Source: an uncultured Bacteroidales bacterium
Lineage (GTDB): Bacteria > Bacteroidota > Bacteroidia > Bacteroidales > F082
Direction: 5' to 3'
NCBI GenBank assembly: GCA_905234645.1
Contig: CAJOIS010000022.1
Span: 1 to 64,000 of the forward strand
Length of the DNA stretch: 64,000 nucleotides
The notes below the pieces were generated by a model. That model saw nothing but the letters and a program-made list of their open reading frames with translations, did not search any database and was not told the DNA's origin. Shown here piece after piece: positions 1 through 7,673 of this stretch (positions within the stretch are counted from its first letter, which is position 1; every line of letters begins with the position of its first letter). A program made the position numbers and the translations under genes.

Positions 1-621
1 AAGGTCATTTTATACCATTCCAACAAGCCCAAGTTCTCAGACATCATTGCAAAGGCGCTCAATCGCTACGAACGCATTCTGCAAGCTCGTCAACGCCAAG
101 CCCGTCAGCGTGGCTTCGAGCCTTACACATGGGAAGTACCTGCCGAACGTCTTTACAAAGAAGAAACCCATCAAGTCAAGCCTGCTGTGAAAGACCATGC
201 GCTGCTGCCCTTCATCGAGCTGAAGAAGGCATCCAATCCCGAACAGATGTTTCGCGACTTCCTCGAAAGCCATGCCGCCAGCATCGACTGGTGGTATAAG
301 AACGGCGATGAAGGTAAGCAGCACTACGCCATACCTTACGAGCAAAGCAATGGCGAGAAGGCGCTATTCTATGTGGATTTCATCATCCGCATGAAAAACG
401 GCCAACTGTTTCTCTTCGACACCAAGACCGAGAACAGCGACCCCGAAGCTCCCAACAAGCACAACGCACTTCTTGCCTACATGAAGGAACGCCCCGACGA
501 AAACCTGAAGGGCGGTGTGATTGTGGAAAAGAACAATGTGTGGTACTACTGCAAATATGCCATCCAAACCACTTCCGATGTTACAGGTTGGGATGCGTTT
601 TTCCCTGACGAGTATAATTGA
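1..621 (+). CDS. DEAD/DEAH (type III R-like) helicase, C-terminal part with putative PD-(D/E)xK nuclease-like domain; 5' truncated by window
   Basis: Frame 1 is open from base 1 to the TGA at 619-621. The C-terminus reads DWWYKNGDEGKQHYAIPYEQ...FYVDFIIRMKNGQLFLFDTKT, typical of type III R-like helicases; D...DTK resembles a (D/E)xK motif. Confidence 0.7.
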   Translation, partial: KVILYHSNKPKFSDIIAKALNRYERILQARQRQARQRGFEPYTWEVPAERLYKEETHQVKPAVKDHALLPFIELKKASNPEQMFRDFLESHAASIDWWYKNGDEGKQHYAIPYEQSNGEKALFYVDFIIRMKNGQLFLFDTKTENSDPEAPNKHNALLAYMKERPDENLKGGVIVEKNNVWYYCKYAIQTTSDVTGWDAFFPDEYN

Positions 622-635
622 AAAAACACAAGAAT

Positions 636-854
636 ATGAGCAAAGGTATTGATAGCGTATTCCTGCACTACGGCGTGCGCAAGGAAGATATGGAACTCAT
701 CCTCCAAACTTGTCGCGACAACGACATCAATGAGGAATGGCTGAAAGAGAACATCTTGAAGCCATATAATGAAGCGCGAACCCAGCAAAACACAGTGGAT
801 GAGCGCACCCTTACGAAAATCATGAAACGTGCCATCAAAAACGTACAGCCATGA
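636..854 (+). CDS. small DNA-modification/defence-system-associated protein (about 72 aa)
   Basis: ATG at 636 (ORF track uses TTG at 618). Its stop overlaps the next start by 4 nt (ATGA at 851-854). Operonic with a DndD-like gene. Confidence 0.6.
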   Translation: MSKGIDSVFLHYGVRKEDMELILQTCRDNDINEEWLKENILKPYNEARTQQNTVDERTLTKIMKRAIKNVQP

Positions 855-2869
855 AGATCAAGAGAATTTACGCCGAAAACTACAAGACTTACAAGAAGTT
901 GGATTTGAACCTTGAAGTCACGTCCGACCGTCCCATCATCCTGATAGGTGGTGGTAACGGCTGCGGTAAAACCACGCTTTTCGATGCCATTTACCATGCG
1001 CTGTATGGATTGGAAATCAAAAGCGTGAAGCACTTTGAGGAGCTTTTCAACGCAGGAGTAATGGTTGAGAGCAAAGGCTTTAACAACAGCCAAATCGTGC
1101 TGCAAATCGACTTCACGGGCATGGTGCTGGCCAAGGAAGAGCAATACAGGCTGAAACGTGCCTATATGGTACTGAACGACCGTGTTGTTGAATCGGTCAC
1201 ACTCTCCATGGGTGGCAACAACTTCGTCTATGGCAGTGGCTCATCCCAGTCCGATAGGGCACAAAACGAAGAGGTAGTAAGCAAAATTATCACTGCCAAC
1301 CTGCCTGCCGAACTGAGCAATTATTTCCTCTTCGATGCCATGAAAACCAGCGAGTTGGTCAAGGAAGAGCAAATCAACAAGTTGATAATGAATAATATCA
1401 ACTCTGTCATGGGCTTCAGCAAATACAGTCAGATGCGCAAAGCCGCTGATGCCTTGTTGTCTGAAAAGAAAGCCGAGCGTATGGAGAATGAGAACCAACG
1501 CAAAGCGTATGGCAAATTAGTGGCTGATAAACAACAGTTGGAAAAAGAAGTTGAAAAACTGGACGATGATTATGCCAAAGCCCTCGAATATGCCAACGAG
1601 CACAAAGAACAGTATGACCAACTGAAAGAAGGCCGTAATGCCGATGACGTTACCCGTGACAAGATTAAGAAAGTAGAACAAACCATACAAGCTACCCTGA
1701 AAGCTGAAGTTGAGTACTTGCAAAATGTCGATGCTATGGCCAAGGATATCGAAACGCAAGTGATCATCCCGAAGCTGGCCAGCATCATCAGCACTGAAGT
1801 TGAGGTCATCCTCCACGCCAAAGAGGAAGTGGCCAGTGCCAGAATCAATCTTTTGACTGACCAACAGATTGAACTGTTCACACACAATCTTGTCAAGGTC
1901 ATCGAAGAACGTTATATGCCAAGTAAGCGTCTTGATGTTCCTTCGTTGATTGAGGAGATGAAGTTGTGGCAAGAGAAGGAAAACACCGTCGAAGACAGGT
2001 TTGCTTTCTTCTCGCCAGCCGAAGTGACGCTGTTGAAAGACACGGTTCGCACTGCCATGTCCAATCCCTTCATTCTTTTGGATGAGCAAAGGGAAATGCT
2101 CAACCAGGACATTCACGACATGCCCAAGCAGCGCGAACTCATTAAGGACTACCAACGCAGCTTGAATGGCAACGACTACACCATCATCCAACTATATGAG
2201 AACAATGCCAAGCGTATCGATGAACTAAAAGATGCCATTGGCACCAAGAAAGCTACTATCAAGGATTTGGAAGGACAGATTAGCAAGTTTGATTACGAGA
2301 TTCCACAGATTCCCGACCCACAATATGACTTGCTTTGCAAACTGCCCGACTTCTTCAAGCAACTCTCAACCAAACTGCTTCGTGCCAAGAAAGCCAGTAT
2401 CGAGCGTATGATGCGCGACCAGTTGAACCAAAATCTCGTTGTTTATGCTGGTGTCATTGGCCGTGTCGAACTCTCCACGGGCAACAGCGATGAAATCTCG
2501 TTCAAGATGTACCACAAAGACGGCAACGAGATTTTCCTAAGCCAACTCAATGCCGGTGCCAAGCAAACGGTAATGCAGGTGCTGCTGAAGGTGCTCTATA
2601 ACCTTGGCGACTATGAGCCACCTGTAATGATCGATACGGTCATGGGTGTTCTCGACAAGGAAAGCCGCGAGGTCATCCTGGAACACTACTTCCCGGATTT
2701 GGCGCACCAAACCATCCTGCTCAGTACCGATACTGAAATCACCACCGAGCACGACTTCGACCGCCTGCAGGCGTATGTGGCCAAGACCTATACGCTACAC
2801 CGCGACAAACAAAATCAGTGTACTACTATCACTGAAGACTATTTCGGACTACAAACCAAAGAAATCTAA
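851..2869 (+). CDS. DndD-like SMC/Rad50-type ATPase
   Basis: 672 aa. Walker A GGGNGCGKTT, central coiled coil, NYFLFDAMKTSELVKEE region similar to the DndD FFFDGE(K) segment, C-terminal ABC signature region (LSQLNAGAKQ) and D-loop region (VMIDTVMGVLDKESR). Confidence 0.75.
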   Translation: MKIKRIYAENYKTYKKLDLNLEVTSDRPIILIGGGNGCGKTTLFDAIYHALYGLEIKSVKHFEELFNAGVMVESKGFNNSQIVLQIDFTGMVLAKEEQYRLKRAYMVLNDRVVESVTLSMGGNNFVYGSGSSQSDRAQNEEVVSKIITANLPAELSNYFLFDAMKTSELVKEEQINKLIMNNINSVMGFSKYSQMRKAADALLSEKKAERMENENQRKAYGKLVADKQQLEKEVEKLDDDYAKALEYANEHKEQYDQLKEGRNADDVTRDKIKKVEQTIQATLKAEVEYLQNVDAMAKDIETQVIIPKLASIISTEVEVILHAKEEVASARINLLTDQQIELFTHNLVKVIEERYMPSKRLDVPSLIEEMKLWQEKENTVEDRFAFFSPAEVTLLKDTVRTAMSNPFILLDEQREMLNQDIHDMPKQRELIKDYQRSLNGNDYTIIQLYENNAKRIDELKDAIGTKKATIKDLEGQISKFDYEIPQIPDPQYDLLCKLPDFFKQLSTKLLRAKKASIERMMRDQLNQNLVVYAGVIGRVELSTGNSDEISFKMYHKDGNEIFLSQLNAGAKQTVMQVLLKVLYNLGDYEPPVMIDTVMGVLDKESREVILEHYFPDLAHQTILLSTDTEITTEHDFDRLQAYVAKTYTLHRDKQNQCTTITEDYFGLQTKEI

Positions 2870-2874
2870 CAGCC

Positions 2875-4473
2875 ATGAACAATATCGCACAATTGACAAT
2901 AAAGGGTGTCACCGCAGTCCAGGACATGCACGAGCGCATTGCCGATGTGAAAGCCCTCATTGAACAACGGTTGAATCTTGATGAATATACCGAAAACGTC
3001 AGACCTGTTACTTTGAATCAGAGTAATGTGTTGCGTATTTGTCTGCTGGCTGGTCTTAGCGACAAGTCGAAACGTGTTATTGACGAAGCCACCACGAGCC
3101 TGACACTATCGCGTACACCTTATGCAACTACGTTTTTCACCAAGTCCAACATTGGTGACTTGTTTGAAGCATTACTGAAGTTGCGCTATCACGATGTGGA
3201 TGCCGATTGGACTGCTCCCAAGGTGGTGAGCCGTGTGATAGGCCGTGAAATCCTTCGCGGTCGCGACATCCTACTGAAAGAAGGAGCTATTGATGAATGG
3301 CTTACCTATATGCCGTTGCGTGGCGGACGCTCTCTCTCAGCCATCCCAGAACTTAATCTGCTCATTGGCCAATATGAAAACGGTATGGATGCCACACTCG
3401 ACATCAATAGCCGTAACATCGCCAACACGCAAATCATCATTGCCGGAACAACGGGTTCAGGAAAGTCAAATCTTATCTCTGTACTCATCAATCAGATTAG
3501 AAGCGCTTCATCCGACACGCATTACCCCGTCAACTTCCTGCTCTTCGACTACAAAGGAGAGTTTTCCGACCCCGCCAATGCCGATTGGCTGCAACAGTTT
3601 GACACCGACCGTTCCGCAATCCTTAATCCCATCGAGAAGCCGCTTCCATTCACTCCGTTCAAGGATTTCAGCGACCGACCCATCAATGAGGTCAATCTCT
3701 ATGCAACATCGCTTTCCACTGCCCTGTGTGCCATTTCACCTGCAACCATCAGCTCCAATATGGACAACAGACTGAGCGAAGCCATCATCAACGCCTACAA
3801 GAAGCAGAACTTGAAGCCTATCACCTTCAAGCAAGTCCTCGACGAATACAAGGCGTTGTTGCCCGCCAAGAAACATGACGAAGTGGATAGCGTGGTATCT
3901 GTGTTAAGCCAGCTGGTCAGAAACAACATCTTTGCCGAGGAGGACAAAATCGACTTGCTCCGCAACTGCTATATCATCAATCTCGGTGGCTTCGAGAAGG
4001 ATGGCATCATGGCCAAGGCCATAGTCTATTTTGTCATCTCCAAGTTGAACGCAATTTATGAAAAGTTGCCCAAGCAAGCCACCAACGAAGACCGGGTAGA
4101 GATACGTCACTTCACCATCATCGATGAGGCCCACTACATGCTGAGCTTCGAGAATAAACCTTTGCAGAACCTGATTGCTGTGGGCCGCAACAAGGGTATG
4201 AGCATCATCCTGGCCACCCAAAACATGGAAAGCTTCAAGAGCAAGCATTTCGACTTCTACGCCAACGCCCAATATCCTTTGATCATGCGTCAGCAGCAGC
4301 AAAACGATGCTGTGCTGAAAGACCTCTTTGGTGTGTCAGGTGGCGCATTACAAGAAATTAAGCAAGCCATTGCTGGACTGGAGAAAGGTGAGCTTATCAC
4401 CAAAGATGCTGCCAACATGGCCTTGGGCATCGGCAAGCATTGGCAGAAAATTAAGGTCACCCATTTGATTTAA
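2875..4473 (+). CDS. HerA/DUF87-type ATPase with N-terminal region resembling DndE
   Basis: 532 aa. Walker A AGTTGSGKSN, Walker B-like FTIIDEAHYML, LATQN motif. The N-terminal about 120 aa (RPVTLNQSNVLRICLLAGLS...GREILRGRDILLKEG) is tentatively DndE-like. Confidence 0.7.
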   Translation: MNNIAQLTIKGVTAVQDMHERIADVKALIEQRLNLDEYTENVRPVTLNQSNVLRICLLAGLSDKSKRVIDEATTSLTLSRTPYATTFFTKSNIGDLFEALLKLRYHDVDADWTAPKVVSRVIGREILRGRDILLKEGAIDEWLTYMPLRGGRSLSAIPELNLLIGQYENGMDATLDINSRNIANTQIIIAGTTGSGKSNLISVLINQIRSASSDTHYPVNFLLFDYKGEFSDPANADWLQQFDTDRSAILNPIEKPLPFTPFKDFSDRPINEVNLYATSLSTALCAISPATISSNMDNRLSEAIINAYKKQNLKPITFKQVLDEYKALLPAKKHDEVDSVVSVLSQLVRNNIFAEEDKIDLLRNCYIINLGGFEKDGIMAKAIVYFVISKLNAIYEKLPKQATNEDRVEIRHFTIIDEAHYMLSFENKPLQNLIAVGRNKGMSIILATQNMESFKSKHFDFYANAQYPLIMRQQQQNDAVLKDLFGVSGGALQEIKQAIAGLEKGELITKDAANMALGIGKHWQKIKVTHLI

Positions 4474-4478
4474 TACTT

Positions 4479-5348
4479 ATGGATTCCAAGGAACTGAAGA
4501 AAGCACAAGAGGCCATCGAAATGCTCCAACAGCTTAATTTGCCTGTAGGCGAACAGCAGTTGGAAGTCCTGGCCGCGATGGAAAAGGAATACCTTGAAAA
4601 AGAGGTGCTGCCTCCCGCCATTGAGGTTATGCGCTCTAAGGTCAGCGGCTTAAAAAACACTTTCCTTGTGTCAGTCAAGTATTCCGAAAAGGATGGATTA
4701 CAATTAGAATCCATTGAAGCGCAAATAGATAAAACTCCCAAAGACAAGGCCGAGGATTTGGCCACAGTCAAAGACACTGACGAAAGTCGCTATCTGGGAG
4801 TAGATCCTGTAAGCGGAAAGAAGGTTTATGTGAAAATTACAAAACGTGGGCTACTGGTTCAGTTGGGTGAACTCAACACTCCAGAAAAGCCAAAGTTCGC
4901 CCGTTTGAGAAGAGGAACAGACATCGACGAGGTCACTTTAGAGGAAGTGTTATCGATATTCAAGTTCCCTCGCACACTTGGCTTTTTTGAAGGCAAGGAA
5001 GTCGTTGTCGGTATCGGCCCTTTTGGTCCTTATATCAAGCACAACGAAAAGTACTACAATCTTTCCAGGGAAGACGACCCTCATACGATTAGTTACGAAA
5101 GAGCACTTGAAATCGTAAAGACCAAACGTGAGCTTGGAATAGGCGAAGTCATTTTGGAGTTTGAAAACGACCCCGACATCCGCGTCATCAATGGACGTTT
5201 TGGCCCTTACATCAAATATAAGAAGAACAATTACAAGGTTCCCCGTCAAATGACACCTTCTTTATTGTCCTATGAGGATTGTCTGGCAATAATAAAAGAC
5301 CCGGCCAATGCAGCCCAAAAATGGGTGCCAAGGAACAAACAAGAATAA
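4479..5348 (+). CDS. stand-alone protein with topoisomerase I C-terminal repeats
   Basis: 289 aa. Repeats of the type LGxDPxSGKKVYVKxxxxGxxVQLGE, KEVVVGIGPFGPYIKHNEKYYNL and PDIRVINGRFGPYIKYKKNNYKVP are characteristic of Toprim_C_rpt. No toprim or cleavage domain. Confidence 0.7.
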   Translation: MDSKELKKAQEAIEMLQQLNLPVGEQQLEVLAAMEKEYLEKEVLPPAIEVMRSKVSGLKNTFLVSVKYSEKDGLQLESIEAQIDKTPKDKAEDLATVKDTDESRYLGVDPVSGKKVYVKITKRGLLVQLGELNTPEKPKFARLRRGTDIDEVTLEEVLSIFKFPRTLGFFEGKEVVVGIGPFGPYIKHNEKYYNLSREDDPHTISYERALEIVKTKRELGIGEVILEFENDPDIRVINGRFGPYIKYKKNNYKVPRQMTPSLLSYEDCLAIIKDPANAAQKWVPRNKQE

Positions 5349-5360
5349 AACACTAAAGTC

Positions 5361-5948
5361 ATGGATAAAGACAAACTACAAAAAGCCTACGAAGCCGTCG
5401 AAATGCTGAAGGCATTAGATTTGCCTGTCAGCAAGGATCAGTTGAACGCCATAGCTGAAATGGAAAGGGAGTGCCTTTTGGAGGAAGTCACACCTCGTAT
5501 TCAGAAGATACTGAAGCCCATCGTCAAAAACATGAATACGAGTTTTCGTATCGATATAAGCTATACCCCTGAGACTGGGTTAGTCATTAACACCGTAGAC
5601 AACAAAAGACCTTACCGTCGCTCAACAGACGAATCAGAGTCGGGGCGCAGAACCAGAACGAAGGTCGGCACACTAAGGGTTACATACCCCGACGGTCGTG
5701 TGATTGAGCACAATAAAGCATCCCAGACCTTAGTTGATGTGGTAGAATCCATTGGCTTTGAGAATGTTGAAAAGCTCAAATGGACTGTTACCAGCCAGCC
5801 ATTTGTTTCAAAAGAAAGACATCCTCATCGTCAACAAGAACGAGACGGTTGGTATATTACCACCCATTCTAGCACACCCTTCAAGAAAAAACAAATCGAA
5901 GATTTGTCCAAAAAGTTCAAACTGAAATTAAAAGTTGAAATAGTTTAG
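5361..5948 (+). CDS. uncharacterised operon partner; N-terminus paralogous to the preceding protein
   Basis: 195 aa. KAYEAVEMLKALDLPVSKDQLNAIAEMERECLLEEV matches KAQEAIEMLQQLNLPVGEQQLEVLAAMEKEYLEKEV of the previous gene. C-terminal LRVTYPDGRVI...WYITTHSSTPFKKKQIEDLSKKFKLKLKVEIV domain. Confidence 0.65.
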   Translation: MDKDKLQKAYEAVEMLKALDLPVSKDQLNAIAEMERECLLEEVTPRIQKILKPIVKNMNTSFRIDISYTPETGLVINTVDNKRPYRRSTDESESGRRTRTKVGTLRVTYPDGRVIEHNKASQTLVDVVESIGFENVEKLKWTVTSQPFVSKERHPHRQQERDGWYITTHSSTPFKKKQIEDLSKKFKLKLKVEIV

Positions 5949-6611: not shown

Positions 6612-7673
6612 ATGAGCAAACAACTCGAAATAAGAAACAGCACTGCGGAGTTCCTGATTTTCCAAGCGGAAGGAAAAGAAGACGGCATCCAAGTGGTTTA
6701 CAAGGACGAAACCATTTGGTGCACACAAAAAGCGATGGCAGCATTGTTTGATGTGGGAGTTCCAGCTATCAACAAGCATCTAAACAACCTTTATCTTGAA
6801 GGGGAAATCTTGCGAGAAGCAACTGTTTCCAAAATGGAAATAGTTCAACTTGAAGGCAAACGAGAAGTAAAAAGAATGACAGAGCTATACAATCTCGATG
6901 CCATCATCTCCGTTGGTTATCGGGTTAATTCGTTGCGAGCCACACAGTTCAGACAATGGTGTACCTATGTACTCCGCCAGTTCACCATACGCGGTTATGT
7001 CATCGATAAAAAGCGCATGGAAAACGGTAGTTTCATTGGAGAGGATTATTTCGAGCATCTGTTGGCCGAAATCAGAGAGATAAGACTCAGCGAACGTCGA
7101 TTCTACCAAAAACTGACCGATATCTATGCCACTGCTATCGATTACAACAAAGACGCACCGACAACGAGGCAGTTTTTCAAAATGGTGCAAAACAAGATGC
7201 ATTATGCCGTCCACGGTCATACAGCAGCCGAGCTTATCGTTGGCCGCGCCAATGCCGAAAAAGAACACATGGGATTGAACACTTGGGAGAATGCCCCAAA
7301 CGGAAAGATTGTAAAAACCGATGTCAGTATCGCGAAGAACTATTTGAACGAGTTGGAGTTGGAAGACATGGGACGACTGGTAAATGCCGCTTTGGATATG
7401 GCTGAGCGTATGGCCAACCGTCACATTCCCATGACGATGGAGGACTGGGCCAAACGCATTGACATCATCCTTCAAGCAGGTGGGGATGCTGTCCTGACCG
7501 ATGCCGGTGTAGTCACAGCAGAAGAGGCAAAGGCATTCGCCGAAACCGAATTTGAAAAATATCGAATCATACAAGACCGGCTATTCCAATCCGACTTTGA
7601 CCGCTTTGCAGAAAACGACTATTTACCGCTTGACTTCAAGGAAATCGAAACTGGGCAAAACGACTGTCAATAA
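6612..7673 (+). CDS. RhuM family (virulence RhuM-like) protein
   Basis: 353 aa. TQKAMAALFDVGVPAINKHLNNLYLEGEL-type N-terminus, YNLDAIISVGYRVNSLRATQFRQW, YATAIDYNKDAPTTRQFFKMVQNKMHYAVHGHTAAELI. Confidence 0.85.
   Translation: MSKQLEIRNSTAEFLIFQAEGKEDGIQVVYKDETIWCTQKAMAALFDVGVPAINKHLNNLYLEGEILREATVSKMEIVQLEGKREVKRMTELYNLDAIISVGYRVNSLRATQFRQWCTYVLRQFTIRGYVIDKKRMENGSFIGEDYFEHLLAEIREIRLSERRFYQKLTDIYATAIDYNKDAPTTRQFFKMVQNKMHYAVHGHTAAELIVGRANAEKEHMGLNTWENAPNGKIVKTDVSIAKNYLNELELEDMGRLVNAALDMAERMANRHIPMTMEDWAKRIDIILQAGGDAVLTDAGVVTAEEAKAFAETEFEKYRIIQDRLFQSDFDRFAENDYLPLDFKEIETGQNDCQ

Follow-up and report, generated by a model that had tools for sequence, protein, structure and literature searches.

The gene TopC, at positions 4479-5348 of the forward strand in a window of 64,000 nucleotides from an uncultured Bacteroidales bacterium, encodes a protein of 289 amino acids in which an N-terminal head is followed by three C-terminal repeats of DNA topoisomerase I (TopA). 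TopC looks like an hd2-type head that has gained a complete three-repeat TopA tail, since the head is common to TopC and hd2, the product of the next gene, and hd2-like proteins end other restriction operons. The gene stands directly behind HerA in what is, judged by its gene content, a type III restriction-modification (R-M) system, and is best seen as optional cargo of a variable slot and not as a part of the core machine, because HerA loci without TopC hold other genes there, wherever their 3' flank reaches far enough. With regard to its role, our leading and still tentative reading, to which we give somewhat less than an even chance, is that TopC serves this type III R-M/DndD/HerA locus as an accessory adaptor, which is docked by its head and binds ssDNA.

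The ATG-started frame matches the Pfam family Toprim_C_rpt (PF13368) in three stretches with 139.2 bits (E 4e-41; gathering cut-off 22.3 bits), and the Pfam search found no other family in the 289 residues. No Toprim or catalytic domain was detected by Pfam or by NCBIfam, where the C-terminal part of the DNA topoisomerase I model aligns alone (TopC residues 89-275 on model positions 575-760). With Toprim_C_rpt as the sole family found, a topoisomerase I enzyme is ruled out. The profile search proposed in the preliminary description was thus positive, and its claim of an orphan TopA C-terminal-repeat protein without toprim or catalytic domain holds. The resemblance to the TopA tail far exceeds chance and extends to the fold, as Foldseek aligned the TopC model, at E 8e-8, with the ssDNA-bound topoisomerase I of M. 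smegmatis (6PCM), with a poor model (pLDDT 57 overall, below 50 in the head) that is usable for the repeats alone; this poor quality counts against the adaptor reading. Elsewhere in the source genome, Toprim_C_rpt was found only in topA (contig C14, 777-aa frame; genome search). Beyond this genome, the phylum search revealed no orphan TopA tail among the matches listed (at least about 99 bits), all of which lie in frames of at least 599 aa. In plasmids, no match to TopC spans more than 75% of the query; some of these matches carry a topA annotation, and others lack annotation there. No relatives of TopC or HerA were found in viral contigs; the lone phage-record match to TopC, MT835665, is tail-only and unannotated.

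The three repeats differ in how well they preserve GR(F/Y)GPY, the motif with which this repeat of M. smegmatis TopI stacks on bases of ssDNA (PMC9369019). Repeat 1 (4803-4976, forward strand, 26.3 bits) is degenerate, with TKRGLL where topA has GRFGPV, repeat 2 (4986-5138, forward strand, 66.6 bits) reads GPFGPY, and repeat 3 (5160-5312, forward strand, 55.5 bits) has an intact GRFGPY. An alignment of TopC with five full-length relatives gave the same picture throughout: GRFGPY is invariant in repeat 3 (6/6), and repeat 2 has GP(F/Y)GPY in all six, so that arginine is replaced by proline with both aromatics retained. At the motif site of repeat 1, most aligned topA have GRFGP or GRYGP, whereas all six TopC have lost the motif and carry TKRG(L/I)L or TSYGLL instead. 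If the adaptor reading is right, the tail, which would have come in one piece from a Bacteroidales topoisomerase I, would grip single-stranded DNA without sequence specificity, mainly via repeats 2 and 3, and would hold the restriction complex on DNA with exposed single strands, such as replicating, unwinding or damaged invader DNA. The strength of the repeat match, the presence of all three topA repeats in order, the motif kept in repeat 3 and the aromatics kept in repeat 2 all argue for this.

Against it stands the loss of the repeat 1 motif and of the repeat 2 arginine in all TopC; the tail is thus not under plain conservation for binding DNA and may have switched to another partner. The loss in repeat 1 would fit a tail that serves as a protein-binding module, for instance for RNA polymerase, and steers the system to transcribed DNA; according to work cited in PMC9369019, TopA C-terminal regions do bind RNA polymerase in E. 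coli (zinc ribbons) and in mycobacterial TopI. However, these known interactions involve other repeat types or lineages, we found none for Bacteroidota, and the ssDNA-stacking aromatics are retained in repeats 2 and 3, so that we consider a protein-binding tail quite improbable.

Whatever the tail binds, TopC is under purifying selection and is maintained, since pairwise dN/dS amounts to 0.08-0.15 overall and, within the repeats, lies at 0.05-0.11 in almost every pair; this also speaks for the adaptor. A decaying, functionless by-product of domain capture, as the degenerate repeat 1 and the occurrence in just six of the 174 genomes of the family could suggest, is disfavoured by this selection and by a reading frame that is intact in all six genes across a synonymous divergence near 2, and we regard it as scarcely credible at a dN/dS of about 0.1.

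Regarding the origin of the tail, the topA alignment of TopC residues 103-276 covers the three repeats in their proper order, with 51-55% identity to the nearest-clustering topA of the genus, 47-52% to other topA of the genus and 43-50% to topA elsewhere in the family and order. The tree unites the six TopC tails in a single clade (100/100), whose long branch (0.86) falls with weak support (82/68) among one set of genus topA. The simplest history would be the fusion of a topA tail from this or a close lineage to an hd2-type head, followed by fast divergence. A tail that has its closest likeness in topA from within the genus (up to 55%, against 43-50% elsewhere), spans all three repeats and is kept by purifying selection could also act as a decoy or guard of host TopA, in which the mimic binds a phage factor aimed at TopA and thereby triggers or spares the system. 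We think this unlikely: a bait should stay nearer to its target than the long branch indicates, a phage inhibitor of the TopA tail was not found in the open-access literature, and the head common to hd2 would be left unexplained.

This head is the second element on which the adaptor reading is built. The preliminary description overlooked that the TopC head (residues 1-82; 4479-4724, forward strand) also opens hd2 (5361-5948, forward strand), where it is followed by a C-terminal alpha/beta domain. The two heads are paralogous (36% identity, E 3.6e-13, shared alignment), hd2 starts after a gap of 12 bp and adjoins TopC in all six loci. The AlphaFold model of hd2, of fair quality (mean pLDDT 79.7), starts with two helices plus a beta hairpin and continues through a low-confidence linker at residues 81-101 into the alpha/beta domain; Foldseek returned no PDB match below E 1, and we found no family name for hd2-type proteins. 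An earlier proposal of a helical head of about 75 residues therefore needs correction to about 80 residues, and to a head that is not purely helical, given the hairpin in the paralogue model. A head profile matched eight further genomes of the order (E 2e-13 or better), and an hd2-type C-terminal domain is what usually follows the head in these genomes and on a plasmid of Parabacteroides distasonis. Across the order, hd2-like proteins often lie within or close other R-M operons, several of which were called by reading, and they occur there without TopC; hd2-type heads are also found in restriction operons showing no HerA of this kind. Because of the latter, the TopC head would most likely dock to, or work beside, hd2 or a restriction partner that hd2 uses too. 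The head common to hd2 and the hd2-like proteins of other R-M operons thus both speak for the adaptor. The same head and the adjacency in 6/6 loci can also be read in another way, namely that TopC, through pairing of the heads, adjusts or shuts off hd2 and takes no action of its own on invader DNA, but hd2-like proteins manage without TopC in other R-M operons, and we hold a mere regulator of hd2 to be quite unlikely.

Three allelic C-terminal types of hd2 occur on a similar head in the window and its relatives L022-L026. This C-terminal domain (about 5667-5945 in the window) shows a weak profile resemblance to the hemimethylated-DNA-binding domain of SeqA, which is among the best PDB sequence matches (E 1.2-1.6; hhalign probability 14%); SeqA is absent from the Foldseek top 50 for hd2, and we treat a SeqA-like hd2 C-terminus as a weak lead. 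If it were followed, TopC and hd2 could form a shared-head sensor pair, in which hd2 would read methylation and TopC exposed single strands, so that both would jointly recognise newly replicated, hemimethylated DNA near forks and signal to the restriction complex which DNA is to be attacked and which spared. We rate this version as a long shot.

The preferred role as an adaptor has to be seen within the operon. The window opens at the contig start inside Res and holds its C-terminal endonuclease part (1-621, forward strand, open from base 1), which by reading is near-identical to the corresponding end of Res in L022-L024 (783 aa); its VDF...FDTKT stretch reads by eye as a PD-(D/E)XK motif. Relatives L022-L026, which belong to the same genus (from G096, G098, G135, G110 and G106), provide a longer sequence of the same locus with the gene order Mod - Res - 72 aa - DndD-like ABC ATPase - HerA - TopC - hd2, with extra genes inserted among the operon genes in L025 and L026. 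Complete relatives carry both Mod with N6_N4_Mtase (PADLOC MTase_III 3e-96) and Res with the ResIII helicase (a full-length relative gave ResIII 1.8e-14 and PADLOC REase_III 2e-18), of which the window has the Res end. The next gene (636-854, forward strand) encodes a small conserved protein of 72 aa without a convincing family match, with homologues of 37-42% identity at the same position in L072, L083, L084, L088 and L140. It is followed by an ABC ATPase (851-2869, forward strand; PADLOC DndD 2e-63, PbeC 2.6e-58), which aligns over its full length with TIGR03185 DndD at 195.8 bits (E 1e-57), below the cut-off of 245.85, and is on these scores related to DndD without being an equivalog. The preliminary description took this neighbour for an SMC protein. 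A true SMC has a hinge domain and a long coiled coil of 800-1000 residues (PMC10853773), for which 672 aa are too short; the best matches are DndD and PbeC, and the zinc-hook motif is absent, with only three cysteines present. HerA (2875-4473, forward strand) is a HerA/FtsK-type ATPase resembling the DndH C-terminus (DUF87 1e-10; PADLOC DndH 6e-31). Its N-terminal ~150 aa are possibly DndE-like, as one of six N-termini weakly matches TIGR03184 DndE (E 0.0096); no PDB match was obtained for this part. DndC and DndA of Dnd phosphorothioation were not recognised by eye in L022-L026. With small or overlapping gene gaps throughout, including 5 bp between HerA and TopC, the window genes are consistent with one operon, and this tight spacing also supports the adaptor reading. 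The proposed setting in a defence operon is therefore borne out, with a type III R-M locus and its DndD-like ATPase and HerA as neighbours. Besides, one extra A puts the ATPase gene of L022 out of frame, and ATPase and HerA of L023 show gaps of 37 and 49 bp, through either assembly error or decay. Behind the operon, the window contains a RhuM-family gene (6612-7673; PF13310 3e-105; PADLOC PDC-S05).

In operons of this type TopC is optional. It was found in a single genus of the family, always adjoining HerA (6/6), while HerA of this type was found without TopC in 11 genomes (five more of the family and six of the 394 of the order), where for L072, L075 and L085, which end within about 500 bp of HerA, the absence of TopC means negative head searches of their genomes. 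An unverified faecal contig filed as phage (MT835906) also has the Mod-Res-DndD-HerA core with the same HerA and no TopC. The expected co-occurrence thus applies in one direction, from TopC to HerA, and not in the other, and the notion of TopC as a part of an SMC/HerA machine finds no support; that most loci with the same HerA have no TopC also weighs against the adaptor. In loci with enough 3' flank, the slot behind HerA holds other genes instead. There are ZorA-, ZorB- and ZorC-like genes by family matches in L073 (4398-8227) and by sequence likeness in L074 (397-4199), in both cases directly behind HerA of type III Mod-Res-DndD-HerA loci, while L088 has SIR2-like genes there, L084 a ResIII helicase, and further loci other genes. 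Defence-type genes are also found inside the core operon at L025 12360-18455, L026 9174-12869, L072 4444-7052, L083 6705-7601 and L084 3437-4447, the inserted types being GmrSD, AAA ATPase with HNH nuclease, Abi_2, Panacea/MqsA-like and RhuM.

TopC remains 93-98% identical while the Mod target-recognition region has been exchanged, with L023 sharing 12-40% identity with L022/L024 there. A steady TopC beside unrelated recognition regions would suit sequence-independent binding, as befits a part that does not read the recognition sequence, and counts in favour of the adaptor. In L023 and L026, hd2 is of one type (C-terminal dS 0.01) although TopC has diverged between them to dS about 1.8, which points to recombination. 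L022 and L024 share both the hd2 type and the Mod recognition region; however, L023 and L026 share a type with unrelated recognition regions, which excludes hd2 C-terminal types as one-to-one partners of Mod recognition.

In comparison with known systems, TopC matches the Toprim_C_rpt (Topo_C_Rpt) region of TopA, for example in M. smegmatis TopI, in sequence, fold, repeat order and the GRFGPY of repeat 3, but differs from TopA by the lack of the enzyme domains, a new N-terminal head, the lost repeat 1 motif and its place in an R-M operon. With the hd2-type accessory proteins of Bacteroidales R-M operons it has the homologous head and the operon-end position in common, and it bears TopA repeats instead of the hd2 C-terminal domain. 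The DndDE-HerA "HerA/FtsK capture" systems likewise place a DndD-related ABC ATPase beside a HerA/FtsK ATPase, which in clade 3 is fused to DndE (PMC10853773). In contrast, both ATPases are joined to type III Mod/Res here, the DndE part is weakly supported, and we found neither type III coupling nor a TopA tail described in that source (PMC10853773). A typical type III R-M system comprises Mod and Res, as do the complete relatives, whereas this locus has additional ATPases, and its cargo genes, both within and behind the operon, vary. We found no report in the open-access literature that links the TopA C-terminal repeat to a defence system; each part is of a known kind, and the combination appears to be new.

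If our reading is true, a defence operon has recruited the tail with which a housekeeping topoisomerase grips DNA and uses it as an exchangeable module on a shared docking head. The hd2-type head would then serve restriction operons of Bacteroidales as a general plug, and the slot behind HerA would be an exchange site at which effectors, be they ZorABC-like, SIR2-like or TopC, are swapped on one restriction core.
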